Source of the DNA: Salinisphaera orenii subsp. orenii MK-B5
GTDB taxonomy: Bacteria; Pseudomonadota; Gammaproteobacteria; Nevskiales; Salinisphaeraceae
Direction: 5' to 3'
DNA length: 64,000 nt
Assembly (NCBI RefSeq): GCF_003788635.1
Contig: NZ_AYKH01000044.1
Location: 1 to 64,000, forward strand
Shown: piece after piece, positions 5,896 through 45,897 of the stretch
Position numbering within the stretch: position 1 is the stretch's first letter
How the letters are laid out: each line of letters opens with the position of its first letter
Translations under genes and position numbers: made by a program
Notes under the pieces: generated by a model
What the model was told of the DNA's origin: nothing
What the model saw: only the letters and a program-made list of their open reading frames with translations
Database searches by the model: none

Positions 5896-6691
5896 GGGCC
5901 ACTCCCCGCATCCCCGCCAGCGCGTCGCCGAGCGCGGCGATCATCAGCCGCGCCGCGAGCTCGCCGAAACGGGTGTGCTTGCCGGTGTAGGCCAGCGGCG
6001 CGCCGTCGAGGCCGGCGAAGACCGCGGTGGCGTCGGTCCCGGTGCCGGTGGCCGGCGCGCCCGTGACGGGGCTGGTCACGCCGTGATCGGCGAGCGTCGC
6101 CGTCTTGGCCTCGGTGAGCGTGGCCAGCGTCTCGGCACAGGCCGCCGGCGTCAGCGCCAGACTGGTGCCGAAGGCGCAGTTGATGGTGCCGACCGGCTCA
6201 TCACCAAGCGGCCCATCGCCGGCCGGCACCAGCTCGGCGCCGTCGGCGGGGTCCCCGGCGCGGCGGGCGTTGGCCAGACCCGCGGTGAGCAGCAGACACA
6301 GCGTGTGGCCGGCCTCGCGGACGCTGGCCAGCCGCAGCCGGTGCATCCAGGCGCCGGTCATCATGCCCACGCTGTCGGCGGGCAGGCCTCGCGCCGCCGC
6401 GGTCTCGGCGACCAGCGCTGCGGGCCCGCCGGCGTGCCGGGGCGCAGCGGCATCAACGGTCATGTTGCAGAAACCGCCGGCCTGCCCCCAGCCGCCATTG
6501 ACCAGCGCCGAACTGAGCACCGGGCGCGGGCGATCGAAGAGCACGCCGACGGCCCCGCGATCGACGCGGCCGTGCCAGCCGGGCGGCAGGGCACCGGCGG
6601 GCAGAGCGAGCGGCGTCGCGTCGCCCGCCAGCGCTGCGGCCGACCAGCATGCCGGCGCGCCGTGCGCGTTGTCGTCCGCGGCGGCGATCAG
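5885..6691 (-). CDS. cbiZ: Adenosylcobinamide amidohydrolase; start probably a CTG overlapping the cobO stop
   Basis: CbiZ cleaves the aminopropanol arm from scavenged cobinamides to give adenosylcobyric acid. Family motifs are clear: [48 protein letters not shown] and ATGTGTDA. The first ATG/GTG/TTG codon of the frame is a GTG at 6544, only about ten residues before the ALVNGG motif. Codons upstream of it stay open and keep a protein-like composition ([21 protein letters not shown]) up to the end of cobO. A CTG at 6691-6689 overlaps the cobO TGA in the same four-base way as the other junctions of this operon, so I give 268 residues. The shorter 219-residue form from 6544 is the conservative alternative. 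Confidence 0.85.
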
Positions 6692-29640: not shown

Positions 29641-29856
29641 TCAGCGCGGGCCACGCAGCGGGTCGAGCAGCGGCTTGAGCCCGTTGTGGTCGATGTGGTG
29701 CATGAGCGCGAGCAGGCGCCCGAGCTCGCCGTCGGGAAAGCCTTCGCGGGCGAACCAGTGCAGATACGGCCCCGGCAGATCGGCCAGCAGCCGGCCCGCG
29801 TACTTGCCGAACGGCATCGTGCGCGTGACCAGCTTGTCCAGATCCTGCGGGTTCAC
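29641..29856 (-). CDS. DUF3820 family small protein
   Basis: This 71-residue cytoplasmic protein matches the DUF3820 pattern along its whole length: MPFGKYAGRLLADLP, YLHWFAREGFPDGELG and HNGLKPLLDPLRG. Such small proteins are common in gammaproteobacteria and have no established function; the fold resembles a part of exonuclease-associated quorum-sensing-like proteins by annotation only. It is 72 bases upstream of def on the same strand and may be co-transcribed. Confidence 0.9.
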   Translation of the reverse strand: MNPQDLDKLVTRTMPFGKYAGRLLADLPGPYLHWFAREGFPDGELGRLLALMHHIDHNGLKPLLDPLRGPR

Positions 29857-30102
29857 GGCGCGCGACCGCCAAGCGCGGCCCGGGTGCCTGTCACGGCGGC
29901 GGCAGGCGTGGCCGGCAGAGGCGGCGTGGCGACGTGCGGCGTGCCGCCGACCTGTGGACCGGTGCCGGCTCGACGACGGCGCATCGATCCCTGCGCCGCC
30001 GCGGGGCCGAGTGCCGCCGCCACGACGATCCGCGGCGAGCGGCCCGGATCCGTTGCGAGCCGATCCACCGGACGCTCTGTCGGCGAGCGAACGGGATTCG
30101 CC

Positions 30103-30996
30103 TCAGGGCCGCCCGGCGTGCGGCACATCGACCCGTATCGCCGCCAGGGTGGCCTCGCGGGCGGCGCTGCGGGCGTGCTCGTCGAAGTCCGGCGCCAGAC
30201 AGGCGAACAGGGTCCGGCCGTCCGCGCCGCCGAGCATGCAAGCAAACACGCCGGTGCCGGTCGGGATCTCCTCGAGGATCTCGCCGCCCTCGCGGACCCG
30301 GATCAGCCGCTCGCCCAGGGCGTCGGCGATCCACAGCGCGCCCTCGGCGTCCAGGCCGCAGCCGTCCGGGGCGAGCGCGAGTTCGCCGAGCGCCGTGGCC
30401 AGGTCACGCGCGGCGGGCGGATCGCCGAAGGCGGCCCAGTCGCGCCGGTTCGACAGCGAGCCATCGGCCGCGACGTCGAATGCGGACACGCGGTTCCCGA
30501 ACGTCTCGTTGACCAGCAGGGCGCCGTCGTCGGTCAGCACGCTGCCGTTGGGGAACCACAGGTCGTCAGCGACCCGGGTCACACCGCCGTCCGGATCCAC
30601 GCGCAGCAGGGCGGCGGGCGCGATCGGGGCGCCGGCCATCAGGTCGAAGCCGAAATTGCCGACATAAGCGCGGCCCTGGGCATCGACCACCATGTCGTTC
30701 GGGTGCCCGCCGACGTACGGGCCCAGATCGGCGTGCGTGACCAGCCGGCCGTCGGCCTCGCGGCGCAGCAGGCGGGCGTCGCGCATGGAGACCACCAACA
30801 ACCGACCGTCCGGCAACCAGCCGAGCCCGGAGGGCTGCTGCGGCACGTCGGCCTCGATGCGCAGGTCGCCGCCATCCTCGGCCGAGGAGAACACCCGATG
30901 GGTGTAGAAATCCACGAACCAGATCCGTCCCCCGTGCCAGCGGGGGCATTCGAGGAAGGACAGGTCGGACACCAGGGTGCTGATCTCTCGGCGCAT
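30103..30996 (-). CDS. SMP-30/gluconolactonase/LRE family protein
   Basis: A 297-residue six-bladed beta-propeller protein. Motifs include LSFLECPRWHGGRIWFVD at the start with the first metal-binding Glu, PSGLGWLPDGRLLVVSM, GGHPNDMVVDAQGRAYVGNFGF with the conserved Asn and Asp, and LDAEGALWIAD near the end. Proteins of this type hydrolyse sugar lactones or other esters using a divalent metal. No sugar operon is nearby, so the substrate is not defined. It stands alone. Confidence 0.9.
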   Translation of the reverse strand: MRREISTLVSDLSFLECPRWHGGRIWFVDFYTHRVFSSAEDGGDLRIEADVPQQPSGLGWLPDGRLLVVSMRDARLLRREADGRLVTHADLGPYVGGHPNDMVVDAQGRAYVGNFGFDLMAGAPIAPAALLRVDPDGGVTRVADDLWFPNGSVLTDDGALLVNETFGNRVSAFDVAADGSLSNRRDWAAFGDPPAARDLATALGELALAPDGCGLDAEGALWIADALGERLIRVREGGEILEEIPTGTGVFACMLGGADGRTLFACLAPDFDEHARSAAREATLAAIRVDVPHAGRP

Positions 30997-31282
30997 GGGT
31001 CGGGCTCCAGCGGGTCGCGAGCCGCGCGACCGGGGTCATGTACTGAAAATAACGTTCCCGACGTCCGGTGGATGTGTCAAGACGACCCGGCGACCGGATG
31101 GCCGCGCGGGCGCCAGCCCATGTCGCCGCGTGCCGCATCCGCGCCTGGCTGCATGAAGCCGTACCGCGCGCCGCCTGCCCGCACGGCCCCGCCGTCGGCG
31201 CCACGCGCCGCCCGGACCGGATACCGCCGGCAGAGATGAACGACCGGGGCACCCCGGCACCCGCGAACCCGCTCCCCCCAGG

Positions 31283-31717
31283 CTAGTACAGCTGTTCGAG
31301 ATACCCCCACAGTTCCTCGGCACGCTCGTAGACCAGGGCGTTCCGAGCACCGGTCAGGGCGAGGGCGTAGGAGCTGCCGTAGACCTCCCGCGTGAACGTC
31401 TGGTCCAGAAAGGCGTACTCGGCGTCGCGGTAGTGCAGCCATTGGCGCTGCGAGGCGCGCAATGCCGCCTGCTGCGGCTCCGACAGCCGGGCCATCACCC
31501 GACGATAGGCCTCGTTCAATTCATCGTCGAGCGCCTCGGCCATGCTCCCCGAGGCCCGGTCCATCGACAACGTCGTCCGCCCGTCCAGAATCCGCTGCTG
31601 ATACGCGGCCATGCGTTCGTGAAACGCGCCGACGTGGTTCGGGACATCCGGATTCACGATCCCGGCGGTCGCGAAACCCACGAACCCCAGCAGCAACAGC
31701 GCCACCCATCCCTTCAT
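31283..31717 (-). CDS. Exported DUF1311 protein (LprI-like lysozyme-inhibitor family)
   Basis: The 144-residue precursor starts with a short signal peptide (MKGWVALLLLGFVGFATA). The helical DUF1311 segment follows at about residues 60-105, recognised by LDDELNEAYRRVMARL and LRASQRQWLHYRDAEYAF. In Mycobacterium LprI this domain inhibits lysozyme; in most bacteria the role is unknown. The usual disulfide cysteines are absent here, which is unusual for the family. The start at 31717 is preferred over a longer open frame. Confidence 0.82.
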   Translation of the reverse strand: MKGWVALLLLGFVGFATAGIVNPDVPNHVGAFHERMAAYQQRILDGRTTLSMDRASGSMAEALDDELNEAYRRVMARLSEPQQAALRASQRQWLHYRDAEYAFLDQTFTREVYGSSYALALTGARNALVYERAEELWGYLEQLY

Positions 31718-32020
31718 GACAGCCCCTCGTTTCGCGGCATGAGGCCGTGCGTCCAGCAAGGTCCGCGCCAGACCGCGCAAGTCCCGGATCGGCAGCGGAA
31801 TAATGGCCGGGCCGGTACGCGCCCACGGCCGCGCTGTAAGGTCCGCCGACGCGGAACGCGGCCTCTCATCGGCGCCCGTGCCCGCCGATCGGCGCACATC
31901 GGCCGTCCGCGGCCGAGCGCCCAGGGCCCGCCCGAAACCGATAGCATCCATGCCGAGCACTGCCCGAGACCCGCCGGCGACCGAGCCGACGGGTGGCCGG
32001 GCCCGCCGGACGGATACCCG
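31718..32020. other. 303-base divergent intergenic region
   Basis: It lies between the divergent DUF1311 gene and yigZ and must contain their promoters. I see no convincing hexamer pair, repeat or further gene. Confidence 0.4.
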
Positions 32021-32644
32021 ATGCGCCATGCCATGCCCGCCGCGAGCGTCGACGCGCCGCACACCGCCACGCTCGACGTGCAGAAAAGCCGCTTCATCGG
32101 CTGGTGCGCGGCCGTCGACGGCATCGACGACGCCCAGCGGCTGGTCGCGCTCGCGCGCCGGCACCACCCGGAGGCCTCACACCACTGTTCGGCCTACATC
32201 GCCGGCGCGCCGGACGACGACCAGGCCATCGGCTTTGCCGACGACGGCGAGCCCGGCGGCACCGCCGGCCGGCCGATGTATCAGGTGCTGGCGGGCAGCG
32301 GCCTCGGCCGCGTCGTCTGCGTGGTCATCCGTTATTTCGGCGGCACCAAGCTCGGCACCGGCGGCCTGGCACGCGCCTACGGCCAGACCGTGACCGCGCT
32401 GCTCGCGGACCTGCCGACACGCGAATACATCCCGCGCCGCCGCCTCTCGCTCGGCCTGAACTTCGCCGACGAACAGCCCGCCCGCGGCTGGCTGGCCGAA
32501 CACGAAGGCGAGATCGTGGAGGCGCGCTACCACGCCGAAGGCGTCACGCTGGCGGTGGACTGGCCGCAGGACGCCGACGCGGACCTGGCCGAGCTCGATG
32601 CGCGGCTCCACGGGCGGTTGGGCCTGGATCCCGACGAGGCGTAG
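32021..32644 (+). CDS. yigZ: YigZ family protein (IMPACT domain)
   Basis: This 207-residue protein has the N-terminal IMPACT domain with KSRFIGWCA, HHCSAYIAG, FADDGEPGGTAGRPM and VVIRYFGGTKLGTGGLARAY, and a smaller ferredoxin-like C-terminal domain. Bacterial YigZ may act on translation or RNA; no activity is settled. The ATG at 32021 is chosen as the first one in a protein-like frame. It is monocistronic. Confidence 0.93.
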   Translation: MRHAMPAASVDAPHTATLDVQKSRFIGWCAAVDGIDDAQRLVALARRHHPEASHHCSAYIAGAPDDDQAIGFADDGEPGGTAGRPMYQVLAGSGLGRVVCVVIRYFGGTKLGTGGLARAYGQTVTALLADLPTREYIPRRRLSLGLNFADEQPARGWLAEHEGEIVEARYHAEGVTLAVDWPQDADADLAELDARLHGRLGLDPDEA

Positions 32645-33293
32645 CCGGCGCGCTCGTTACATTGGTGCGTGTAGCGCTGCCGAGCGCGATAGCCAGCTGA
32701 TTCCGACAAGGCAACCAGGGTTTCGCGCTGATGCGCGAGTTACTTATATTTGCTTGCCCACATGCGTGCCTTGTTATTCAAAAGGCACCCTGGCTTGCGC
32801 CGATGCTACGCATCGGTGCCCTGCGCGGCTGCGGCCGCAAGCGGGACAGCCGGAAACTCGCTACGCTCAAACATCCGGCTGTCTTGATCCGCTTGCGGCC
32901 TTCGCTGCTCGGCGCCGCGCCCAAGGGATTGAATGCAGGTCCTCTTAGAAAAGTGCGGTTTGGCTGTTGCCTGGTCGTCTGTATTCGGGCCCCGTTTGTA
33001 GCGGCGAGAAGCGCAGCATCGAAGGGCCGCTTCATGCGGCAGCCTGTCTGAGGGCCGCGCAGCGGCCCGAGTTCTGCCGCATCCCTTCGATGCGAGCATC
33101 GCAGTGGACCGGCGCTTCGCGCCGGCGCGCAACCCGGGTGTCTTTTCCTTTGCTTCCTTTCGTTTGGACAAGCAAACGAAAGGGAGTCGCGTATCAGCGC
33201 GAAACCCCAAGCCACGTCAAAGCACGACGCTCAATGCGACCCGCGCTCATCGAGCGATCGGACGAGCCGCGGCACTCGCGGCCCAACCCGGCG
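32645..33293. repeat. Structured intergenic region with nested inverted repeats
   Basis: No supported gene. The region holds GCATCGAAGGG (33016-33026) matched by CCCTTCGATGC (33083-33093). Inside that pair is the hairpin GGGCCGC-GCA-GCGGCCC (33052-33068). After it comes a perfect 11-bp stem, CCTTTCGTTTG-GACAAG-CAAACGAAAGG (33156-33183). Chance frames here give peptides that I have seen as spurious proteins in other proteobacteria, so this is probably a dispersed intergenic repeat or a structured RNA. Confidence 0.6.
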
Positions 33294-33572
33294 CTACCCG
33301 CGCCCGGTCACCTCCAGCAAGTGATACCCGAACTGTGTCTTCACCGGCCCCTGCACCTCGTTCAGCGGCGCGCTGAACACCACCTCGTCGAACGCCGGCA
33401 CCATCTGACCGGGCCCGAACGTGCCGAGATCGCCGCCCTGGCGGCCGGACGGGCAAGTCGAATGCGCACGCGCGATCTCCGCGAAATCGTCCCCGTTCTC
33501 GATCCGTTCCTTGAGTTCGATGCACTGGGCCTCGTCTTCGACGAGGATGTGGCGGGCGCTGGCTTCGGCCAT
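33294..33572 (-). CDS. ppiC: Parvulin-type peptidyl-prolyl cis-trans isomerase (PpiC)
   Basis: This 92-residue single parvulin domain is close to E. coli PpiC in length. It starts ASARHILVEDEAQC and contains HSTCPSGRQGGDLGTFGPGQMV and VKTQFGYHLLEVTG, with the active-site His and Cys of the parvulin fold present. It has no signal peptide, so it is cytoplasmic. The ATG at 33572 has AGGACC upstream. It marks the end of the high-GC core region before the AT-richer island. Confidence 0.93.
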   Translation of the reverse strand: MAEASARHILVEDEAQCIELKERIENGDDFAEIARAHSTCPSGRQGGDLGTFGPGQMVPAFDEVVFSAPLNEVQGPVKTQFGYHLLEVTGRG

Positions 33573-33794
33573 AGTCGGTCCTGCTTTAATGAAATCTGGG
33601 CGCCATACTACGGCAATTCGCGCATGAAAGATCATGACTTATCGCTGCGAATGCAAAATGAAAGACTGGACCCTACATGTCCGCTACATGCTCGCGCCTC
33701 ATTCCGGGCTTAAATACCGATGGCCAGGCTTGAAATTCAAGACGGTATCTGACCCTCAAGTCCGAATACTGCATTTGTCTTCCGCGAAAATGTT

Positions 33795-34994
33795 CTAATA
33801 AAACTTCCACCACAACAAAAGCGTTCCCCCTATCGGCGGCAACCATGCAGCTATTCTGATTGACCACAAAACCAGCTTCAAATATTTCTGTTGATCGCTG
33901 ATCCTCTGTCTGGCCTTTGAAAGCCTTTCCTCCACTTGGGATCCTGAAGAACGGGGGCCCTCAAGCTCCAACCTGTCAAAAACTGACTCAAAAGCGTCCT
34001 CGAAAGTCTTAAGCTGAAAAAGCTGACTTCTGGCCATCCCACCAACTAACACTGCGGCCAATAACGCACCGACTACAATAATATAAGCGGCCCAAATATC
34101 CGGCGTTTTATAAATACCTATTAGCGCGCCGAAAACTAGCGGAATAGTCAGCGCTTTCGTCGTGCTTTCAGATAGCGCATCACTAAGTTCTCTCGAAAAC
34201 TTCACCTGCGCGTCCGCTAGTTCACTCCTTAGTTTCTCGAACGAAAAATTGTTTATATAGCAATCCAAATCTAAATCATATTTTTTTAATACATCTCCCC
34301 AGCTTTTAACCAGTTCGCCAAATAACCCATCTTGAATATTGGATCTACCAGCCAAGAATTCCGAGATGGCTAAGCGTAATATTTTCTGACGCTCCGGAAC
34401 ATGCAGCGAACCAGCCGAGTGCTGCGTCAAGTTCTCGATAATGTCGAGCTCAACGGAGCCCGCAGAGATATAGCTCGGGTCAATCTGTGTTACTAATTCG
34501 ATTGTTTTTGGGCCTGAAGATGCATTCGCCGGTACCGTAAAAAACAAAGATTTAGCAAAAATATTATTTGACACCGATGAAGCTACAGCTAACCTCTCCA
34601 ATAACGTAATAAAGCGAGAATAATTTAACGCTACCGCTAAATTTTCTGGCTTAGGTTCTTCACCCTCAAGATGATCTTCCTGAATCAGGTAATAGTTTTT
34701 CGGAGCTTCACCACGCGATAACGATTGCGATTTCTTTATCAGATCAGCGGTACCACTGTAGAAACGAGCTTCTTCATTGCTTCCAATAGCCACTTCCAGG
34801 GCAACTTCCTCTCCCCGTTCCTCAGGTCCATCCACGAAGTAAGCTATGTGCCCCGGGAGATACTCGCATGCCTCCAGTGCTTTCGCTATTTCGTGCGTTT
34901 TATCACCGGAATAATGGAAACTACCACTTTTAACAGGCGGCTGCCCTACAGCCCGGTATAGTTCAACTAGAGCTCGAAAGTCTGCACTAGCCAT
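33795..34994 (-). CDS. Unrecognised protein with three C-terminal membrane segments, partner of the NdpA-like gene
   Basis: I do not recognise this 399-residue protein. Residues 1-275 are soluble, with a beta-rich start (SGSFHYSGDKTHEIAK, GHIAYFVDG, ALEVAIG) and a helical middle (QKILRLAISEFLAG, KFSRELSDALSES). Hydrophobic segments follow at about 281-295, 300-320 and 373-397, with a charged helical stretch (330-372) between the second and third. Its start overlaps the NdpA-like gene by eight bases, so the two are translationally coupled. Codon use is markedly less GC-rich than in the flanking core genes. The layout, a soluble sensor or binding part fused to a membrane part, resembles many defence effectors, but that is inference. 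Confidence 0.75.
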   Translation of the reverse strand: MASADFRALVELYRAVGQPPVKSGSFHYSGDKTHEIAKALEACEYLPGHIAYFVDGPEERGEEVALEVAIGSNEEARFYSGTADLIKKSQSLSRGEAPKNYYLIQEDHLEGEEPKPENLAVALNYSRFITLLERLAVASSVSNNIFAKSLFFTVPANASSGPKTIELVTQIDPSYISAGSVELDIIENLTQHSAGSLHVPERQKILRLAISEFLAGRSNIQDGLFGELVKSWGDVLKKYDLDLDCYINNFSFEKLRSELADAQVKFSRELSDALSESTTKALTIPLVFGALIGIYKTPDIWAAYIIVVGALLAAVLVGGMARSQLFQLKTFEDAFESVFDRLELEGPRSSGSQVEERLSKARQRISDQQKYLKLVLWSIRIAAWLPPIGGTLLLWWKFY

Positions 34995-36141
34995 CTGTCG
35001 GTCCGCGGCGGTTGCTTGTGCTGTTTCGGGAATCGAGGCTCTTCTTTATAGCCCGCACAGTTTCATGCGGAACATTCGTGAGGCTTACGGTTTCAGTTTC
35101 TCGGTTAAATACGATCTCGGCGTCACTATAGCCCAAGGCCGAATCGTCAAAGCTAAGCTGCCACCGGTCAGTCTTAGCTTTGATTCTAGTCATCGAATCA
35201 AGCGCCTTTTTACTTACCCTAAATTCCGCCGGCACCTTGTTCGCATCACTGTTTAGATACTCCCCAAGCTCATCGGCTTCGGGCATCTCATCCGCCGAAA
35301 GCGAGCTACGAACACTATGTACGACCATATCGATAGTGACCGTTTCATTATCAGGAAGCTCGCGAAAGTACTCGATCAAAGTCCTACGAATGTAGCTTGC
35401 TTTTCTCTTTAGCTGCGGCCGAGATAAAGCGTATTGACGAACCGCTTTGATAGCTGCTTTGGTACCGCGATTTGCTGATATACCTTTTTCGCAACCAAAT
35501 GCCTCTATAAAATAACCGGCGACCTCTGAGTCTGCTGATTTGCGGTCAATGAAACATAAATAGGTTCGATCAATGGCGCCGTCGGTCGCTGACTCTTCCA
35601 GTCGATCTTCTTCGCCCTCTTCATTACCTCCAGTAAGCGCTTCTCGATATCGATCTAAGTTGACCCGCGCAGCTTGATGTAATTTCGAAAAATCAATTTC
35701 GGTAATTTGAGTCGGCTTTAGATCAGAGTTGACAGTTATCGCACCTTTTTCTTTAACCATTACAATGAGCAGGAAAGACTCACCACTGGCTCTATACACA
35801 AAAAAGCAGACATAGCCCCCGGTAGCTAGCGACTCCTTAGCAATCTGCTCACGAAGTTCGTCTAAGGCAACGCTTGTTAGACGCTTAAACTCCTCGAACG
35901 AATGTTCCTGAGTTAACTTTTGAACGGCGCCGGGAAAGCGTCCCTCTCTGCGGTTTTCGGAGAACTGCCCCCAAAGCACGGTGCTTTGACGTTGTCCTAT
36001 CAAACCAACCAACTGACTAGCCAAATCTTTAACGGTACTATCTGTAGTGTCTAACGGTTCTTTCCCGTATCGCACAGATACGGCTGAACTGTGAGCGGCT
36101 TTATCAAGCTCATGAATTATTGAGAAGTTCAGTTCTTCCAT
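34987..36141 (-). CDS. NdpA/YejK-like nucleoid-associated protein
   Basis: This 384-residue protein resembles the 37-kDa nucleoid-associated family (YejK/NdpA). GGYVCFFVYRASGESFLLIVMV (split over 109-129) is followed by DFSKLHQAARVNLDRYRE (150-167). Then come TYLCFIDRKSADSEVAGYF (193-211) and EAFGCEKGISANRGTKAAI, with the conserved GC and later basic residues. E. coli YejK binds DNA and affects topoisomerases. This copy sits in an AT-richer island and is coupled to a membrane protein, so it is not the housekeeping yejK. Similarity is at motif level only; a profile search would settle it. Confidence 0.72.
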   Translation of the reverse strand: MEELNFSIIHELDKAAHSSAVSVRYGKEPLDTTDSTVKDLASQLVGLIGQRQSTVLWGQFSENRREGRFPGAVQKLTQEHSFEEFKRLTSVALDELREQIAKESLATGGYVCFFVYRASGESFLLIVMVKEKGAITVNSDLKPTQITEIDFSKLHQAARVNLDRYREALTGGNEEGEEDRLEESATDGAIDRTYLCFIDRKSADSEVAGYFIEAFGCEKGISANRGTKAAIKAVRQYALSRPQLKRKASYIRRTLIEYFRELPDNETVTIDMVVHSVRSSLSADEMPEADELGEYLNSDANKVPAEFRVSKKALDSMTRIKAKTDRWQLSFDDSALGYSDAEIVFNRETETVSLTNVPHETVRAIKKSLDSRNSTSNRRGPTDG

Positions 36142-36174
36142 TTTGCCCTCGGGAGTGATTTCGCCCTAAATGGG

Positions 36175-36279
36175 TCATTGGGTCAGGGCGCCATTAGGTC
36201 GACTCTTGCATTGTGCATTTTCGGCGTCGTAGTCCGCCTGCAATCCCAACCAGAACTGAAGGTTGAGAGAGGTTAAGCG
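36175..36279 (-). pseudogene. Remnant of a HigA-type antitoxin, C-terminal fragment
   Basis: A frame without a start reads RLTSLNLQFWLGLQADYDAE to a TGA at 36177-36175. The segment FWLGLQADYD is the characteristic C-terminal motif of HigA/VapI antitoxins. A stop codon lies immediately upstream (36282-36280) and the helix-turn-helix part is missing. The fragment ends 34 bases before the NdpA-like gene, so it probably marks a disrupted toxin-antitoxin locus at the island junction. Confidence 0.65.
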
Positions 36280-36294
36280 TCAGATATCCTCTGA

Positions 36295-36350
36295 GGGATT
36301 TAGGAGGGATTTAGGGTCAGATCTTGGCATGGATTTAGGGTCAGATCTTG
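36295..36350. repeat. Short tandem repeat, 20-base unit
   Basis: GGATTTAGGGTCAGATCTTG occurs at 36307-36326 and, identically, at 36331-36350, with a partial copy (GGGATTTAGG) at 36295-36304. A related TCTGACCC sequence lies on the other side of the two-gene unit near 33749-33756, beside the palindrome CTTGAAATTCAAG (33730-33742). They look like REP-type sequences flanking the island. Confidence 0.7.
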
Positions 36351-36359
36351 CAAAGTGCA

Positions 36360-37448
36360 TTACGCGGCCTCTAGATACTGCTTGACGGCACGTCCGACCT
36401 CGTCCGCATGCCGGTAGATATCGGTGATCTTCTCCAACTCGACCCGCTGTTCGCCGTCCGGCACGAAAATAGTAACGATGCTTTTCTGAACGCCAAAGTG
36501 CAGTCGGCAGATCGGCCGTCGATTATTATCGTCGAACAGTATGGCGCAGTAGCTTTTCGCATCGCGCATGGCAATGCGATCCGGATCGGTGATCTGCGCG
36601 GCAATGGCCTGAATGATTCGGTAGGCCTGCCATTCCTCCGGTGTGGTGACGATGCCGTCTTTCTTCGATTCGCTAGGCTCGGCGTTTACGGAAACACTTT
36701 CCTTGGCATCGGCAGCCGCGCTATCCGATCCATCTGTCTCGAAGGCGGTCTTGAGCCTATCGTTCACGCGGTCGCGGATATATTCCCGACAGGCTTCCTG
36801 GGTGAGGCCCGTGAATTCTTCTTTGACGCTCGACGTGAGCCGGCCTGAATAGACGCGGCTGGCAAACAACTTTACGAAATCTTCGCCGGGGTTCTTCAAC
36901 TCCGCTGCGATCTCAGCCTTCAGCGCACGGCGATATTTGAGATTGCTCGCAGTGCTGAGAATATTGTCGAGATCAAAATGCGCCTTGGCGAATTGCTCCA
37001 GTTCATCGACCCGCGTCTCATTGAAGTCCAGTAGATCGAATTCGAAGAACGACCGCTCGTCCATCCGATTGGCCCGTTCGAGATCGCTGTAAAAAAGGTA
37101 ACGTGCACCATCCGTCAGGATCGCGAAGCGAGCGTCGGTAACACCAAAGTAGCGAAAAAGCTGGCCAGCATATTTGGCATCGAGGTCGGCGCCGAGAGGT
37201 TTACACTCGACCAAGACCATGATTTGACCGTCGAGCTTAATCGCGTAATCGACCTTTTCACCCTTTTTTACACCGTGATCGGCTGTAAATTCGGGCACGA
37301 CCTCGCCGGGATTGAATACGTCATATCCTAGAGCCTGAAGAAACGGCAGTACGAACGCGGTTTTTGCAGCTTCTTCCGTGCCAACGCTATCGCGCTGACG
37401 CATTACCCTGCTCGATAAGTTACTCAAGCGGTCGACAAGCTCCATCAC
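36360..37448 (-). CDS. Stand-alone HsdR N-terminal-type nuclease-domain protein
   Basis: This 362-residue protein has the N-terminal nuclease domain of type I restriction R subunits (HSDR_N-type), with the PD-(D/E)xK residues Asp67 (KVDYAI), Glu81 and Lys83 (VECK). It lacks the helicase motor and has no hsdM or hsdS neighbours. An acidic, low-complexity linker (about 235-265) leads to a C-terminal alpha/beta domain (EWQAYRIIQAIAAQI, AILFDDNNRRPICRLHF). Such proteins are widespread, often in prophages and islands. They may be nucleases or DNA-end processing factors, but no activity is settled. A palindrome just upstream suggests autoregulation. Confidence 0.85.
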   Translation of the reverse strand: MMELVDRLSNLSSRVMRQRDSVGTEEAAKTAFVLPFLQALGYDVFNPGEVVPEFTADHGVKKGEKVDYAIKLDGQIMVLVECKPLGADLDAKYAGQLFRYFGVTDARFAILTDGARYLFYSDLERANRMDERSFFEFDLLDFNETRVDELEQFAKAHFDLDNILSTASNLKYRRALKAEIAAELKNPGEDFVKLFASRVYSGRLTSSVKEEFTGLTQEACREYIRDRVNDRLKTAFETDGSDSAAADAKESVSVNAEPSESKKDGIVTTPEEWQAYRIIQAIAAQITDPDRIAMRDAKSYCAILFDDNNRRPICRLHFGVQKSIVTIFVPDGEQRVELEKITDIYRHADEVGRAVKQYLEAA

Positions 37449-37457
37449 AAATCCCCC

Positions 37458-37491
37458 AATATCCCCGTCGTTCGACCATACAGGGGATATT
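37458..37491 (-). promoter_or_regulatory. Palindromic operator-like site upstream of the HsdR-N gene
   Basis: AATATCCCC (37458-37466) and GGGGATATT (37483-37491) are perfect 9-base inverted arms separated by 16 bases. The site ends ten bases before the start codon at 37448. It may be a repressor site or a hairpin covering the ribosome-binding region. Confidence 0.55.
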
Positions 37492-37562
37492 CATCACCGG
37501 AAAAGAGATGGACAGCGCGTAGGCCTCGTCAATAAGTGGCATACGCGCATGTCAGGGCCCGC

Positions 37563-38333
37563 TCACAGCCGCGCCAGCAACTCCTGCTTCTTGGACGCGA
37601 ACTCGCCGTCGGTCAGCAGCCCTCTGCGGTGAAGTTCGCCCAGCCGCTCGATCGCATCCAGAATCCCGGCACTGTCGCTGGGCGCGGACGCGGCCTGCGA
37701 CGGAGGTTCGGCAGCGGCGGGCGCTTCCGCCGGTGCCCCATCTGAAACGCCGTCGACGCGAGTCAGCCGCTCCAGCGGCACTTCGCCGAGCTGGCTGGTG
37801 AACACGAGCCGGCTCGCCGCGCCCTGCTGCGACTGCGCCACGCCGCTGATGCGGTGCTCGCCGGTGTCGTAGACCGCGAGCTGTCCGTTTTCGCGGATGG
37901 CGAGCCGCCGCGCGGCGTCGAAGTAGGCGTAGGCGAGGTCGTTCTGCGTACCGGTGGCCGACGGCTGGCCCAGTTCGGCCGGCCAGCCGTGGTCTCGCAC
38001 GCGCGGGCCGGTATCCCAGGCGCGGGCGTCGGGGTCGATGCGGCGGTGGCGGTTGGCCGAGGCCACGTTGTCCCGGCGCAGCTGTTCGGACAGGGCGTTG
38101 CAGAGGGCGTCGACGCGGCTCTTGAGGCCGTGGTTGTTGGCGTCGGTGAGCATGATGAGCCCGCCGCGCATCCACTGGCCGGGGCCGGCGAACTCGGGGT
38201 GGTCGAACATGGCCATGTCGCCGCCGCCCTGTTCGACGGCGTGGCGCAGATGGCGGACGGCATCGGCGGAGAAGCCGAAACGGTCGGCGAGGGTGGCGGT
38301 CGAGGTGTCGGAATCGGTCTGCGGGTCGGTCAT
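37563..38333 (-). CDS. SHOCT-domain protein of unknown function
   Basis: From the ATG at 38333 this is a 256-residue soluble protein. The C-terminal 33 residues form a SHOCT domain (LGELHRRGLLTDGEF, KKQELLARL), a short helical module found at the ends of many unrelated proteins. The N-terminal part is not recognised; it contains GGGDMAMFDHPEFAGPGQWM and NGQLAVYDTGEHRISGVAQ, with a proline/alanine-rich linker between the two. GC content is back to the core level. It is transcribed towards the HsdR-N gene's upstream region and stands alone. Confidence 0.75.
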   Translation of the reverse strand: MTDPQTDSDTSTATLADRFGFSADAVRHLRHAVEQGGGDMAMFDHPEFAGPGQWMRGGLIMLTDANNHGLKSRVDALCNALSEQLRRDNVASANRHRRIDPDARAWDTGPRVRDHGWPAELGQPSATGTQNDLAYAYFDAARRLAIRENGQLAVYDTGEHRISGVAQSQQGAASRLVFTSQLGEVPLERLTRVDGVSDGAPAEAPAAAEPPSQAASAPSDSAGILDAIERLGELHRRGLLTDGEFASKKQELLARL

Positions 38334-38634
38334 ATCGGTGTGACCTGAGTGATGGACGAGCGGATGCCGCTCAGTGTGCGCGCGGAATCGGCCGGCCGGA
38401 AGCCCCCGCGCGCCGGTTGCTGCGCCTGCGGGCCGAGGGCACGACAAGGCCGGGGCGCGGCCGGCTTTGATTCGACAGGCCGGGGGGAAGGGTCGTGCGC
38501 TCCTTCTTATTCGGCCTATCCAGGGCCGTGAATGCAGGGATTCAGGACCTGCATCTTGCACCCTCCGTACGAAGCCGAGGACAGCGCATCGTTTCCTACG
38601 GTCGAATCTGCCATCGCCAAGCGCGCTCTTCTCG
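38334..38634. other. 301-base stretch without a supported gene
   Basis: Only chance frames. It contains an inverted repeat ATGCAGG-N9-CCTGCAT (38532-38554), which could end the toxin-antitoxin message or be a decayed repeat. Confidence 0.4.
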
Positions 38635-38924
38635 TCACACGCGCGGCTTCCAATAACCGGGACGCTGGTGCAAATGGGGTACAGCGACCACCGTGATCGT
38701 GTTGCCATCGTGCCGATAGATAACGCCGTACGGGAAGCGATTGACCAGACAACGGCGCGTGCGGTCACTCATCGGCGAATGCGCCTCTGGAAATTGCTGG
38801 ATACGATTCAGGGCTTCAGCCACCGCTTGGCGAAACCGTCGGCCCAGGCCCGTAATTGCTGGTCGTAATAATCGACGGCATCACCGAACTCGGCGGCGGC
38901 CGCCTCGTAGAAGTAGACGTTCAA
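38635..38924 (-). pseudogene. RelE/ParE-family toxin gene with a -1 frameshift
   Basis: The gene starts at a TTG (38924-38922) that overlaps the antitoxin stop by four bases and reads NVYFYEAAAAEFGDAVDYYD, a typical ParE start. Near 38835-38840 the frame shifts. In the new frame the sequence continues FRQAVAEALNRIQQFPEA, RRCLVNRFPYGVIYR and AVPHLHQRPGYW, the rest of the toxin. Total length is 290 bases, one short of a multiple of three, which fits one lost base in the GACGGTTTC stretch. The toxin is therefore probably inactive unless translation slips. Confidence 0.85.
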
Positions 38925-39142
38925 CGCTGATCGTCTTGGCCCAACACCTGCGATGCGGGAATCGAGCGCATCTCGCCACGATCGGCCATATCGATCCGTG
39001 ACTCGGCTTCCTGCGCCCAAAGCTTGTCAATTTCGGGATCGGGCCGATCGAGACTCGAGAGCAGTTCCTCGACTAACGCGGCACGCTGTGCTGGCGGCAG
39101 GCTCAGGGCGTCGTTCAGTATCTTGTCGACCGTAGCGCTCAT
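38921..39142 (-). CDS. Addiction-module antitoxin (Unstab_antitox family)
   Basis: This 73-residue acidic protein starts with a helical region carrying LSLPPAQRAALVEELLSSL, the hallmark of the putative addiction module component family. The tail EAESRIDMADRGEMRSIPA wraps the toxin in such pairs. It precedes a ParE-like toxin with a four-base overlap. Because that toxin is frameshifted, the antitoxin may be kept only by chance or to block related toxins. Confidence 0.9.
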   Translation of the reverse strand: MSATVDKILNDALSLPPAQRAALVEELLSSLDRPDPEIDKLWAQEAESRIDMADRGEMRSIPASQVLGQDDQR

Positions 39143-39242
39143 GTTCCATGCCTACTCGTTCTTCAATGATTGAAGACTAGAGCGTGCACGGCCTCAAGTA
39201 AACGCATGTCGGCTGCTCAGTCGCCGGCTCGCGAGGCCAATA

Positions 39243-39270
39243 AAAAGGCCGGTGAACTTGCCGGCCTTCT
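39243..39270 (-). terminator. Rho-independent terminator of the pyruvate dehydrogenase operon
   Basis: On the minus strand AAGGCCGG, an 8-base loop and CCGGCCTT are followed by a T-run (TTTTTA). It lies 23 bases after the lpdA stop codon. Confidence 0.88.
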
Positions 39271-39292
39271 ACACCTCGAAAAAGTAGCGGCG

Positions 39293-41125
39293 CTACTTTT
39301 TCTGCTTCGGCATATACAGGTCCGTGAGCGTGCCGGCCTGGGCCTCGGCGGCCATGCCGACCGTTTCCGACAGGGTCGGATGCGGGTGGACGGTCAGGCC
39401 GATGTCGTGGGCGTCCGCGCCCATCTCGATGGCCAGGCCCAGCTCGGCGATGAGCTCGCCCGCGCCGGGGCCGACCGCGCCCGCGCCGATGGCCCGCCCG
39501 GTCTCCTTGTCGAACAGGATCTTGGTGGTGCCTTCGGAATAACCCATGCCGAGCGCGCGGCCGCTGGCCGCCCAGGGGAAGGCGCCCTTGTCGTATTCGG
39601 TGCCGTCTTCCTTGGCCTGGGTCTCGGTGACGCCGGTCCAGGCGACTTCCGGATCGGTATAGACCACGGAGGGGATGCACTTGGCATCAAACGCAGATTT
39701 CTCGCCGGCGCAGCATTCGGCGGCGACCTTGCCCTGGTGCGTGGCCCGGTGGGCGAGCTGCGGTTCGCCGGAGACGTCGCCGATGGCAAAGATATGGTCG
39801 ACGTTGGTGCGGCACTGCTTGTCGACGGCGATGAAGCCCTTGTCGCCGACCTGTACGCCGGCGTTGTCGGCGCCGATCTTCGGCCCGTTGGGCTTGCGGC
39901 CGACGGCGACCAGCACGCGGTCGTAGTCCTTGCTCGCGGGCGCGTCCTTGCCCTCGAAGCTGGCCTTGAGCGCCTTCTTGTTGGCCTTTAGGCCCGTGAC
40001 CTTGGTGTTCGTCCAGAGGTTGTCGCAGCGCGCCTTCATCCGTTTTTCCAGCGGCTTGACCAGGTCGCGGTCGGCGCCGGGCAGCAGGTTGGGCGTCATC
40101 TCGACGACGTCGACCTTGGTGCCGTGGGAGGCGTAGACGTTGGCCAGCTCCATGCCGATGATGCCGCCGCCGACCACCAGCAGGGATTTGGGCAGCTCGT
40201 CCGGCGAGAGGGCGGCCTCGGAGTCCCAGATGCGCTCGTCCTCGGGCCAGTCGGGGAGCATGACCGGCTCGGAGCCGACGGCGATGATGCAGTTGGCGAA
40301 GCTGATCTCGCGGGTGTCGTCGCCGCCTTCGACGGTGAGCGTGTGGTCGTCCTTGAAGGTGCCGTTGCCGTTGACGACCTGGACCTCGCGCTTGGCGGCC
40401 ATGGATTTGAGCCCGCCGGTGAGCTTGTCGATGACCGACTGCTTGAACTCGAGCAGCTTGGGCAGCTCGATCTTCGGCTCGCCGAAGCTCACGCCGTGCT
40501 CGGCCATGGCGGCGGCGTCGTCGATGACCTTGGCCGAGTGCAGCAGCGCCTTGGAGGGAATGCAGCCGACGTTGAGGCAGACGCCGCCGAGCACGCTGTG
40601 GCGCTCGACCAGCGCCACGTTAAGGCCCAGATCGGCGGCGCGGAAGGCCGCGGAATAGCCGCCCGGGCCGGAACCGAGCACCAGCACGTCGCAATCGTAG
40701 TCATGCGCGCCCGGGCGCGGCTGGCCGCTGCCGCCGGACTTCGGCTTGTCGCTTTCCTTCGATTCCTTCTGCGGTTTTTTCGACGACGATTGCGATTTTT
40801 CCTCGCTTTTCTTCTTGCCCGTATCCTTTTTCCGGCCCGAGCTTTCGGCCTTGTCGTCCGCAGCATCCTCGGCTTCGTCGTCGCCGCTGTCGGCGGCTTC
40901 GATGAGCGCGATGACCGAGCCTTCCGAGACCGTGTCGCCTTCGGTGACCTTGAGCTCGGTGATCCGGCCGGCGACGGTGGAGGGCACTTCCAGCGTGGCC
41001 TTGTCCGACTCCAGCGTGATCAGGGCCTGTTCCTTGTCGACCTCGTCGCCCTCGGCGACCAGCACTTCGATGACCTCGACCGCGTCGAAGTCGCCAATGT
41101 CCGGAACCTTGATTTCCTGCGCCAT
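39293..41125 (-). CDS. lpdA: Dihydrolipoyl dehydrogenase (E3) with an N-terminal lipoyl domain
   Basis: E3 re-oxidises the lipoyl groups of the pyruvate dehydrogenase complex, passing electrons to NAD. The 610-residue protein is longer than the usual 470 because residues 1-80 are a lipoyl domain (lipoylated Lys42 in ESDKATLEV). A lysine- and serine-rich linker (about 90-135) joins it to the FAD enzyme: GSGPGGYSAA, redox cysteines 183 and 188 in GGVCLNVGCIPSK, and the C-terminal VHPHPTLSE with the active-site His. It is the last gene of the aceE-aceF-lpdA operon, 185 bases after aceF. Lipoyl-E3 fusions are known in some proteobacteria. Confidence 0.95.
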   Translation of the reverse strand: MAQEIKVPDIGDFDAVEVIEVLVAEGDEVDKEQALITLESDKATLEVPSTVAGRITELKVTEGDTVSEGSVIALIEAADSGDDEAEDAADDKAESSGRKKDTGKKKSEEKSQSSSKKPQKESKESDKPKSGGSGQPRPGAHDYDCDVLVLGSGPGGYSAAFRAADLGLNVALVERHSVLGGVCLNVGCIPSKALLHSAKVIDDAAAMAEHGVSFGEPKIELPKLLEFKQSVIDKLTGGLKSMAAKREVQVVNGNGTFKDDHTLTVEGGDDTREISFANCIIAVGSEPVMLPDWPEDERIWDSEAALSPDELPKSLLVVGGGIIGMELANVYASHGTKVDVVEMTPNLLPGADRDLVKPLEKRMKARCDNLWTNTKVTGLKANKKALKASFEGKDAPASKDYDRVLVAVGRKPNGPKIGADNAGVQVGDKGFIAVDKQCRTNVDHIFAIGDVSGEPQLAHRATHQGKVAAECCAGEKSAFDAKCIPSVVYTDPEVAWTGVTETQAKEDGTEYDKGAFPWAASGRALGMGYSEGTTKILFDKETGRAIGAGAVGPGAGELIAELGLAIEMGADAHDIGLTVHPHPTLSETVGMAAEAQAGTLTDLYMPKQKK

Positions 41126-41223
41126 GGTTTAGTTACCTTGACCGGCCGGCGGGCCGGATTATGCGTTCAAGAAGCGAGCGATCGAAGCGAAAGGCTCCAG
41201 ATCGCCCGGCGCGAGTCATGGAG

Positions 41224-41292
41224 CTGCAAGACAAGGCGCCGTGAGCGCGGTGTAGCAACGCTACACAAGCGAGCGGCAACGCCGTATTGCAG
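41224..41292. repeat. Imperfect long inverted repeat between aceF and lpdA
   Basis: The ends CTGCAA and TTGCAG pair, the centre GTGTAGC-AAC-GCTACAC is a perfect hairpin, and the arms between are mostly complementary. It lies inside the operon's only sizeable gap. It may be a dispersed repeat or an mRNA-processing hairpin that sets lpdA levels relative to aceEF. Confidence 0.7.
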
Positions 41293-41310
41293 TGCCATGG
41301 CCGCGGCCTC

Positions 41311-43107
<1,797 letters not shown>

Positions 43108-43206
43108 AGAGCGTTTCCTTGATCCGGTGACACGGCCCGCTGCCGGGCCGTGGTTTCAAAGCGTGGTGCGTTGAAGCGTCGCGATCGTTACGCGATCAGT
43201 GGGTCC

Positions 43207-45897
43207 TCAATGGGTGATCGGCTCCGGCTTGTCCGGGTCGATGCCGTACTTGCGGATGGCCTCGCCCACCTTCTTGCGCTCGATGTCGCCCTGATCGGCG
43301 AGCGCCTTGAGCGCGGCCACGGTGATCCAGCGGCGATCGACCTCGAAGAAGTCGCGCAGCGCCTCGCGGGTGTCGGAGCGGCCGTAGCCGTCGGTGCCGA
43401 GCGTGTGATACGGGATCGGCATGAATGGCCGGATCATCTCCGGCAGGCCGCGGACGTAGTCGGTGGCCGCGATCGCCGGGCCCTTGGCGTCGGCGAACTG
43501 CCGGGCCACGAAGCTCTGGCGGGGATCGGCCTCCGGATGGAGCATGTTCCAGCGTTCGGTGGTCAGCCCGTCGCGCTTGAGCTGGGTGAAGCTGGGCACA
43601 CTCCAGACGGTGGCGCCGACGTTGTATTCCTTTTCCAGCATCTCGGCGGCGGCGATGGACTCGCGCAGGATGGTGCCGGAACCCATCAGGTTCACCTGCT
43701 TCTTGTAGCGCTTGTTGCCTTCCGAGAACCTGTACATGCCGGCGATGATGTCGTCCTCGACGCCTTCCGGCATGGCCGGATGCGTGTAGTTCTCGTTCAT
43801 CATCGTGAGGTAGTAGTAGACGTCGCGCTGCTCCTCGTACATCTCGACCAGGCCGCGGTGGATGATCACCGCCATCTCGTAGGAGAACGTCGGGTCGTAG
43901 ACGCGGCAGTTGGGCACGCAGTCGAACATGATCGGGTTGTGCCCGTCCTGGTGCTGCAGGCCCTCGCCGTTGATGGTCGTGCGCCCGGCGGTGCCGCCGA
44001 GCATGAAACCGCGGGAACGCATGTCGCCCGCCGCCCAGCACAGATCGCCCACGCGCTGATAGCCGAACATGGCGTAGAAGGCGTAGAACGGGATCATCGT
44101 CCGGCCGTGGTTCGAATACGACGTCGCCGCGGCGATGAACGACGAGATCGCGCCGGCCTCGGTAATGCCCTCCTCGAGAATCTGGCCGTCCTTGGCCTCC
44201 TTGTAGAAGGCGAGCTGGTCGGAGTCCTCGGGCACGAACAGCTGGCCGACGGGCGAATAGATGCCCAGGCTGCGGAACATGCCCTCCATGCCGAAGGTGC
44301 GCGCCTCGTCGGGGACGATCGGGACCACGCGCTTGCCGATGTTCTTGTCGCGGGCGAGGATCTGCAGCAGGCGCACGAACACCATGGTGGTGGCCATCTC
44401 GCGATCGCCCGAGCCCTGGAGCAGCTTGTCGAAGGCCGACAGCGGCGGGATCTCGAGCTTGTCGCCCTCGGTGCGCCGCTGCGGCAGATAGCCGCCGAGC
44501 TCCTCGCGCCGGGCCTTGAGGTACTGGATCTCCTCGGAGTCCTCGGCCGGCTTGTAGAACGGCGCCTCGGCGATCTTGTCGTCGGAGACCGGGATCTCGA
44601 AACGGTCGCGGAATTCCTTGAGCGCGTCCTCGCCCATCTTCTTCTGCTGATGGGTGATGTTCTGGCCTTCGCCGGCCTCGCCCATGCCGTAGCCCTTGAC
44701 CGTCTTGGCCAGGATCACGGTCGGACGCCCGTTCTTGTTGTTCACCGCGCGGTGATAGGCGGCATAGACCTTGTGCGGATCGTGGCCGCCGCGGTTCAGG
44801 CGGCGGATGTCCTCGTCGGACATCGACGCGACCATCTCCTCGAGCTCGGGATACTTGCCGAAGAATTCCCGGCGCGTGTAATCGCCGCCGTTGGCCTTGT
44901 AGGCCTGGTATTCGCCGTCGACCGTCTCGTTCATCAGTTCCACGAGCTTGCCGTCGTGGTCCTGGGCGAGCAGGCCGTCCCAGAGCGCGCCCCAGATCAC
45001 CTTGATGACGTTCCAGCCGGCGCCGCGGAAGGCGCCTTCGAGCTCGTTGATGACCTTGGCGTCGCCGCGCACCGGGCCGTCCAGGCGCTGCAGGTTGCAG
45101 TTGACCACGAAGATCAGGTTGTCGAGGCCCTCGCGCGAGGCGATATCGATCGCGCCCATGGATTCGGGCTCGTCCATTTCGCCGTCGCCGCAGAAGCACC
45201 AGACGTGGCGGCCCTCGTTGTCCTGGACGCCGCGATGCTCCATGTAGCGCATGAAGCGCGCCTGATAGATCGCGTTGATCGGGCCGATGCCCATGGACAC
45301 GGTGGCGAACTGCCAGTAGTCCGGCATCAGCCAGGCGTGCGGATAGCTCGACAGCCCCTTGCCGGTGGATTCGGCGCGGAAGTTGTAGAGCTGGTCCTCG
45401 TCGAGCCGGCCTTCCAGATACGAACGCGCGTAGATGCCCGGCGCGGAATGGCCCTGGATATAGACCAGGTCACCGCCGTGCTTCTCGCTCGGCGCGTGCC
45501 AGAAGTGGTTGAAACCCACCTCGTAGAGCGTGGCCGCCGAGGCGAAGCTGGCGATGTGCCCGCCCACGCCTTCGTGATGGCGATTGGCCTGGATCACCAT
45601 GGCCATGGCGTTCCAGCGGATGATCGAGCGGATGCGCCACTCGATGGCCGGATCGCCCGGCGAGCGCTCCTCCATGTGCGGCGGAATGGTGTTCACATAC
45701 GCCGTGTAGGGCGAGAACGGGATGTGAGCACCCGAGCGGCGGGACCGCTCGATGAGCATTTCCAGAAGAAAATGGGCCCGTTCCGGGCCCTCGCGTTCGA
45801 TGACAGCATCCAGCGCATCACGCCATTCGGCGGATTCCTGCGCATCGACATCCTCGACGTCGTCGATGTGCTCGGGGTGGGCACGGGCCTGGGCCAT
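43207..45897 (-). CDS. aceE: Pyruvate dehydrogenase E1 component, homodimeric type
   Basis: E1 decarboxylates pyruvate with thiamine diphosphate and passes the acetyl group to E2. The 896-residue protein is full-length for the gammaproteobacterial alpha2 type. It shows SSYPHAWLMPDYWQFATVSMG, the thiamine-diphosphate motif CGDGEMDEPES with NCNLQRLDG, and QHQDGHN and YAMFGYQRVGD near the active site. It is the first gene of the operon, 99 bases before aceF, and has its own promoter. No pdhR regulator gene is adjacent, unlike in E. coli. Confidence 0.97.
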   Translation of the reverse strand: MAQARAHPEHIDDVEDVDAQESAEWRDALDAVIEREGPERAHFLLEMLIERSRRSGAHIPFSPYTAYVNTIPPHMEERSPGDPAIEWRIRSIIRWNAMAMVIQANRHHEGVGGHIASFASAATLYEVGFNHFWHAPSEKHGGDLVYIQGHSAPGIYARSYLEGRLDEDQLYNFRAESTGKGLSSYPHAWLMPDYWQFATVSMGIGPINAIYQARFMRYMEHRGVQDNEGRHVWCFCGDGEMDEPESMGAIDIASREGLDNLIFVVNCNLQRLDGPVRGDAKVINELEGAFRGAGWNVIKVIWGALWDGLLAQDHDGKLVELMNETVDGEYQAYKANGGDYTRREFFGKYPELEEMVASMSDEDIRRLNRGGHDPHKVYAAYHRAVNNKNGRPTVILAKTVKGYGMGEAGEGQNITHQQKKMGEDALKEFRDRFEIPVSDDKIAEAPFYKPAEDSEEIQYLKARREELGGYLPQRRTEGDKLEIPPLSAFDKLLQGSGDREMATTMVFVRLLQILARDKNIGKRVVPIVPDEARTFGMEGMFRSLGIYSPVGQLFVPEDSDQLAFYKEAKDGQILEEGITEAGAISSFIAAATSYSNHGRTMIPFYAFYAMFGYQRVGDLCWAAGDMRSRGFMLGGTAGRTTINGEGLQHQDGHNPIMFDCVPNCRVYDPTFSYEMAVIIHRGLVEMYEEQRDVYYYLTMMNENYTHPAMPEGVEDDIIAGMYRFSEGNKRYKKQVNLMGSGTILRESIAAAEMLEKEYNVGATVWSVPSFTQLKRDGLTTERWNMLHPEADPRQSFVARQFADAKGPAIAATDYVRGLPEMIRPFMPIPYHTLGTDGYGRSDTREALRDFFEVDRRWITVAALKALADQGDIERKKVGEAIRKYGIDPDKPEPITH

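Follow-up and report, generated by a model that had tools for sequence, protein, structure and literature searches.

The described systems closest to the locus treated here are the REP and REPIN elements with their RAYT transposases (TnpA-REP, PF01797), the HigA antitoxins (TIGR02607), the DS-1 anti-phage pair (NF053868/NF053869), and the defence and toxin-antitoxin hot spots found between core genes. Excerpts of PMC6006769 mention atypical REP classes, and excerpts of PMC13092281 mention a YejK-domain system; we infer that the DS1 of NCBIfam is the DS-1 of the latter paper. A literature search for REP-associated tyrosine transposases together with defense islands found none. The window, a 64,000-nucleotide stretch of Salinisphaera orenii subsp. 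orenii MK-B5 (contig NZ_AYKH01000044.1), has something of each of these systems. Its repeat is short, dispersed and beside a Y1/HUH transposase gene, with an inverted-pair hairpin on contig C20, as for REP and REPIN elements, but the family is low-copy and without the GTAG/GTGG foot, and the units in the window fold weakly; it resembles the atypical classes in the PMC6006769 excerpts. A HigA C-terminus is kept as a remnant, and genes of the same kind are found near lpd in congeners, yet the window has only 65 bases of it. As in the DS-1 pair, a gene for an NA37/YejK-like protein is followed by one for a protein matching the second DS-1 model, while the scores are only about 30% of the NCBIfam cut-offs. 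As in the hot spots, the content of the lpd-ppiC region varies by species (higBA, HSDR_N, RAYT, DUF3800, DS-1-like), but no integrase or attachment site was noticed here.

We read the stretch as probably a recombination scar in this variable lpd-ppiC site, with exchanges at RAYT-linked repeats, that carries a divergent DS-1-like gene pair. The junction is most likely for the most part ordinary scarring at a genome site that varies, a fresh example of a known phenomenon. The features are collected in the table below.

Features of the variable segment and its borders (positions in the window)
Feature	Position	Strand	Evidence
REP-like relic at left border, AATGCAAAATGAAAGACTGGACCCT	33650..33674	+	0/200 shuffles as good
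Segment absent from closest relative G012	33680..37531		genome comparison; G012 has 1.77 kb of other DNA
Second REP-like relic, with 5-base insertion, AAATTCAAGAC-ggtat-CTGACCCTCAAGTC	33733..33762	+	0/200 shuffles as good
Second gene of pair, 399 aa, DS1_2-like	33795..34994	-	NF053869 101 bits, E 7e-29
First gene of pair, 384 aa, NA37/YejK (NdpA)-like, DS1_1-like	34987..36141	-	PF04245 E 6e-44; NF053868 96 bits
Remnant of higA 3' end, with a REP-like end of its own	36196..36260	-	DNA alignment to G009 lpd-linked higA
REP-like end of higA remnant, AAATGCACAATGCAAGA	36204..36220	-	0/200 shuffles as good
Degenerate third copy of 24-base unit	36263..36286	+	71% of 24 bases
20-base unit, copy 1, GGATTTAGGGTCAGATCTTG	36307..36326	+	sequence
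20-base unit, copy 2, GGATTTAGGGTCAGATCTTG	36331..36350	+	sequence; forms, together with 36338-36359 (-), a REP-like singlet directly behind the HSDR_N stop codon
Stand-alone HSDR_N gene, 362 aa	36360..37448	-	PF04313 E 4e-11

A start-less frame runs on the minus strand from 36279 to a stop codon at 36177-36175, its translation ending in NLQFWLGLQADYDAENAQCKSRPNGALTQ*. The initial annotation had recognized in it FWLGLQADYD, the HigA C-terminal motif, and the DNA bears this out. In an ungapped alignment with the lpd-linked higA of G009, a congener, the remnant is identical at 56 of 65 bases (score 85), none of 500 dinucleotide shuffles scoring as well (maximum 26); the match to copy a of the G004 higA spans 31 bases. 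Alignments above all 500 shuffles were obtained for six of the 11 lpd-linked higA copies (G009, G004a, G001, G006b, G007, G010b); for the other five (G013, G004b, G006a, G008, G010a) they were not. Homology is limited to 36196-36260, and the last codons of the frame are read-through rather than higA. The frame does end just before the NdpA-like gene, as had been noted, but 33 rather than 34 bases ahead of the ATG at 36141. The NCBIfam HigA model places peptide residues 3-18 on its positions 64-79 of 81, with 14.8 bits against a cut-off of 47.7, below the cut-off as expected of a fragment. Because this model gives the peptide only E = 0.019, the case for a higA remnant rests on the DNA comparison, by which 36196-36260 is a true one. 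A Pfam search with the peptide gave no match, no further parts of higA and no higB (E up to 1e-4) were found in the window, and 36150-36400 has no duplicate in its own genome.

Adjoining the remnant are two identical 20-base units, correctly described before as 24 bases apart from start to start; they had been placed after the remnant but in coding orientation come before it. The degenerate third copy stops two bases short of where the remnant is broken off. The full unit was found twice, both times in the window, the genome being searched for its 13-base core. Each unit includes CAAGATCTGACCC, which is the core of a low-copy repeat (GGGTCAGATCTTG is the core of the dispersed family within the unit). 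Uniqueness of the repeat had been named as a point against the earlier proposal; the exact pattern GCAAGAYCTGACCC has seven copies in its own genome, including one of the two window units, so the core is not unique. The genus has 46 exact matches in 11 of 14 genomes (0-7 per genome), against one for the pattern read backwards. In single-strand folding the inverted pair on contig C20 gives a strong hairpin (z -11.2); in the window, z is -2.5 for the tandem pair and between -0.7 and -1.6 for three further stretches. Neither GTAG nor GTGG, the tetranucleotide at the foot of REP hairpins, is present in the 20-base unit or its complement, and Rfam gave no match up to E 1 on 33500-37700.

The search for a RAYT transposase that had been proposed was productive. 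The strain's own genome has one Y1_Tnp/RAYT match (contig C20, 7995-8318; 50.6 bits, cut-off 23), belonging to a gene of 282 aa (48.4 bits for the full-length protein) about 1 kb from a copy of the repeat (L032). In three congeners there are four loci (L092, L102, L109 and L118; two in G004, one each in G006 and G009) where the RAYT start codon is 30-60 bp away from the repeat; the distance is 0.3 kb in G013 (L093) and about 1 kb in G008 (L115). The congener RAYT genes adjoining the repeat are of the same kind as that on C20; two G002 loci (L101, L110) have a RAYT of another, distant kind beside the repeat. The repeat is thus a RAYT-linked, atypical, low-copy REP-like family without the GTAG/GTGG foot.

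Relics of this repeat lie on both sides of the gene pair. Window stretches were scored against 45 repeat copies from outside the window, with 200 shuffles each. Besides the relics in the table, the stretch at 36338-36359 (minus strand), directly after the HSDR_N stop codon, scored above all 200 shuffles; the right border, 37449-37562, used as a control stretch, has no repeat (182 of 200 shuffles as good). The left two relics point one way and the right two the opposite way, with the pair between them. The short sequence and small palindrome reported near 33730-33756 do exist, as TCTGACCC at 33748-33755, inside the second relic, and CTTGAAATTCAAG at 33729-33741.

The pair itself is probably a divergent relative of DS-1 rather than an equivalog, judging from sequence; an anti-phage role would be predicted from the family. 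The model scores compare with cut-offs of 330 bits (NF053868) and 315 bits (NF053869). Gene order is kept in the best plasmid relatives, on the two plasmids looked at: the Xanthomonas hortorum proteins are 43% and 34% identical to those of the pair, and the Pseudomonas putida proteins 31% and 26%. Among 61 genomes, DS1A homologues were found in the strain's own and, as one weak match, in G004; among 369 genomes of the class at 1e-15 there was only its own, and six peptide patterns sought in the contig collection gave none that could be confirmed. PADLOC, run on three window proteins, returned nothing for the pair and, for the HSDR_N protein, a single weak match to type IIG.

Comparison with the closest relative, G012, sets the limits of the variable segment. 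Identity is 94-95% over 29687-33679, stopping 5 bases beyond the left-border relic, and 98% over 37532-45627. G012 is without the pair, the stub and the HSDR_N gene together, not the pair alone, and in their place has a DUF3800-like gene and, near the right border, a decayed RAYT of a different subfamily. The G+C content of the segment is 46-54% by part, against 67% for the window.

HSDR_N proteins 74-76% identical to that of the window are encoded near lpd in G013 and G001, in both cases downstream of higBA, with higB disrupted in G001. The idea that HSDR_N is peculiar to the lpd site was rejected, as the gene is widespread in bacteria, with at least 516 relatives among the 595 pattern matches listed.

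Two further items lie beyond the right border of the segment. The SHOCT-domain gene at 37563-38768 changes place within the lpd-ppiC region: in G003, G005 and G007 it is found on the far side of yigZ-ppiC, and in G002 it directly follows lpd. At 38808-39142, after lpd, is a small addiction-module-like pair, one of its two proteins with an Unstab_antitox domain; relatives of that protein follow lpd in G001, G005, G006 and G012.

We compared the surroundings of lpd in 12 congeners (G001-G010, G012 and G013; G011 gave only a distant lpd match). Eight have higA genes or pseudogenes, or higBA, within about 1.8 kb after lpd: G001, G004 (two copies), G006 (two), G007, G008, G009, G010 (two) and G013. 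None was found in G002, G003, G005 or G012, with contigs ending about 4.5 kb (G002), 5.7 kb (G003) and 3.5 kb (G005) after lpd, where higA could be missed. The nearest relative of the stub is the solo higA of G009, followed by copy a of G004, some 130-150 bp downstream of lpd; neither showed a higB next to it. At least three of the 11 lpd-linked copies are disrupted by stops or frame breaks (G006a, G007, G008).

REP-like tags were then counted at higA stop codons, from 10 bases before to 60 after, allowing at most one mismatch. Three tags were scored: the window repeat, ATACTGTCCCC and GTGGTCTGTCCC. A tag is present at 9 of the 11 lpd-linked copies and at none of 41 other HigA loci (22 of them from the genus), a contrast to be read with the second and third tags having been defined on these same higA loci and with related species not being independent. 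The count left out the window stub, matches ending before query residue 60 and duplicates, and HigA matches were fetched in part. Backward and reverse-complement tags scored at none of 52 loci. The window's tag by itself is found at 3 of 11 against 0 of 41. A longer search range or two mismatches brought up weak tags at a few others (G029, elsewhere in G008, a G002 stub). The second tag flanks a RAYT gene in G010 and adjoins RAYT genes in G007 and G003; the third, to which no RAYT was assigned, is located behind the higA and HSDR_N genes in G001 and behind one higA in G006. These three kinds of tag at the 3' ends of lpd-linked higA offer a lead on whether RAYT repeats help to assemble defence and antitoxin clusters. 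Individual sites of the third tag are at 6567 and 7809 of L059 (G001), 2140 of L083 (G006), and 3878 and 4141, on the other strand, of L049 (G013).

Genome-wide, the window repeat does not favour gene 3' ends: of 46 copies, the window's among them, 28 have a same-strand ORF (45 aa or longer) ending within the 150 bp before them, against 26 of 46 for the mirrored side. The ORFs of either side belong to a mixture of Pfam families (all 38 tag-side ORFs and 29 of 34 mirrored-side ORFs were compared, 5 being common to both sets), with a ParE toxin in two tag-side ORFs.

What broke higA can be argued from the order on the coding strand, which is HSDR_N, repeat, repeat, degenerate repeat, the broken 5' side of the stub, the stub, its repeat-like end, and the first gene of the pair. 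The initial annotation had the two-gene unit inserting into a resident higBA locus and cutting higA, an account to which the remnant adjoining the pair and the lpd-linked higA or higBA in 8 of 12 congeners lend themselves. Yet it is the native 3' end of the stub, carrying a repeat relic of its own, that is turned towards the pair, and the break, at the 5' side, is turned towards the repeats and HSDR_N. Positioned past the point where higA naturally ends, and across the stub from the break, the pair cannot have cut the gene, and the insertion account is largely refuted. The lack of any other higA part or of higB in the window, and a nearest relative that is a solo gene, tell against it as well, as does G012, which has no higA at this site, the outcome named beforehand as contrary; the G012 site is not, though, an empty one. 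We thus hold that account to be very improbable. Of the island-junction story the remnant and the RAYT-linked repeat are real, but not the pair as cause of the break. For the defence-like pair the correction is that it broke no toxin-antitoxin gene and is part of a larger variable segment.

The reading we prefer, a scar of exchanges at repeats, takes as established the stub homology, the identity and distribution of the repeat, its RAYT linkage, the absence of the segment from G012 and the side on which higA is broken. Between lpd and ppiC is a site, variable in the genus, that holds antitoxin, restriction-like, transposase and defence-like genes; here the RAYT-linked repeat (GCAAGAYCTGACCC plus flanks) is present upstream of ppiC, at the left border, and again behind HSDR_N and at the remnant end. 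At least one exchange at such repeats in this lineage, whether through RAYT activity or through recombination of one copy with another, would have joined the repeat end of HSDR_N to the final 65 bases of a solo higA of the lpd type, with loss of the remainder of that gene. The DS-1-like pair lies beyond the natural 3' end of the remnant. Repeat-mediated recombination at the site is plausible. The degenerate third unit at the break fits an exchange at a repeat, but 71% of 24 bases is weak, and the right border without a repeat counts against the proposal. We infer the repeats as the cause of the exchanges, and likewise the order of these, which is not fixed since no genome with the same neighbours in a pre-exchange state was found. 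The low G+C of the 3.85 kb segment and its entire absence from G012 would also suit the transfer of HSDR_N, stub and pair as one horizontally acquired block through recombination in the flanks, the stub and repeats being passengers from another strain or species. The HSDR_N relatives near lpd in G001 and G013 suggest instead that this gene may be old at the site, and the left border coincides with a repeat which, judged by eye, is present in G012 too; we consider a single block rather unlikely. The tags at 9 of 11 lpd-linked higA copies and after the HSDR_N genes of the window and G001, at or just after the stop codon, and the RAYT genes or remnants in the same site in G007, G010 and G012 (with a fragment in G004) could point to REP-tagged cassettes, in which a cargo gene ends in a RAYT-type half-site and an HUH transposase moves gene and tag together. 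A general cassette mechanism is not supported, because the window repeat is not enriched at gene 3' ends genome-wide; moreover, precise excision or insertion pairs were not observed, two of the tag families were selected post hoc, and some of the higA copies are themselves disrupted. Such cassettes are improbable, and it is harder still to credit an integron-like role in which RAYT-type half-sites would mark the 3' ends of small cassettes (those of antitoxins, of HSDR_N and perhaps of the DS-1-like pair) inserted and exchanged next to lpd by an HUH transposase.

Other rearranged higA genes were noted in the genus. At 1443-2368 of L082 (G004), two divergent solo higA genes have between them a second copy of the final 35 lpd codons, with the junction directly after a REP-like tag. 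G002 has two higA 3' stubs elsewhere, so such remnants recur. One belongs to a split higA on contig C58 (L174, 1834-1935 and 4825-5040) that encodes residues 1-64 and 51-84 about 2.9 kb apart, the cut 5' part running into repeat-like sequence (inverted, 2 mismatches); the other is a separate stub at 6602-6709 on contig C141 (L173).
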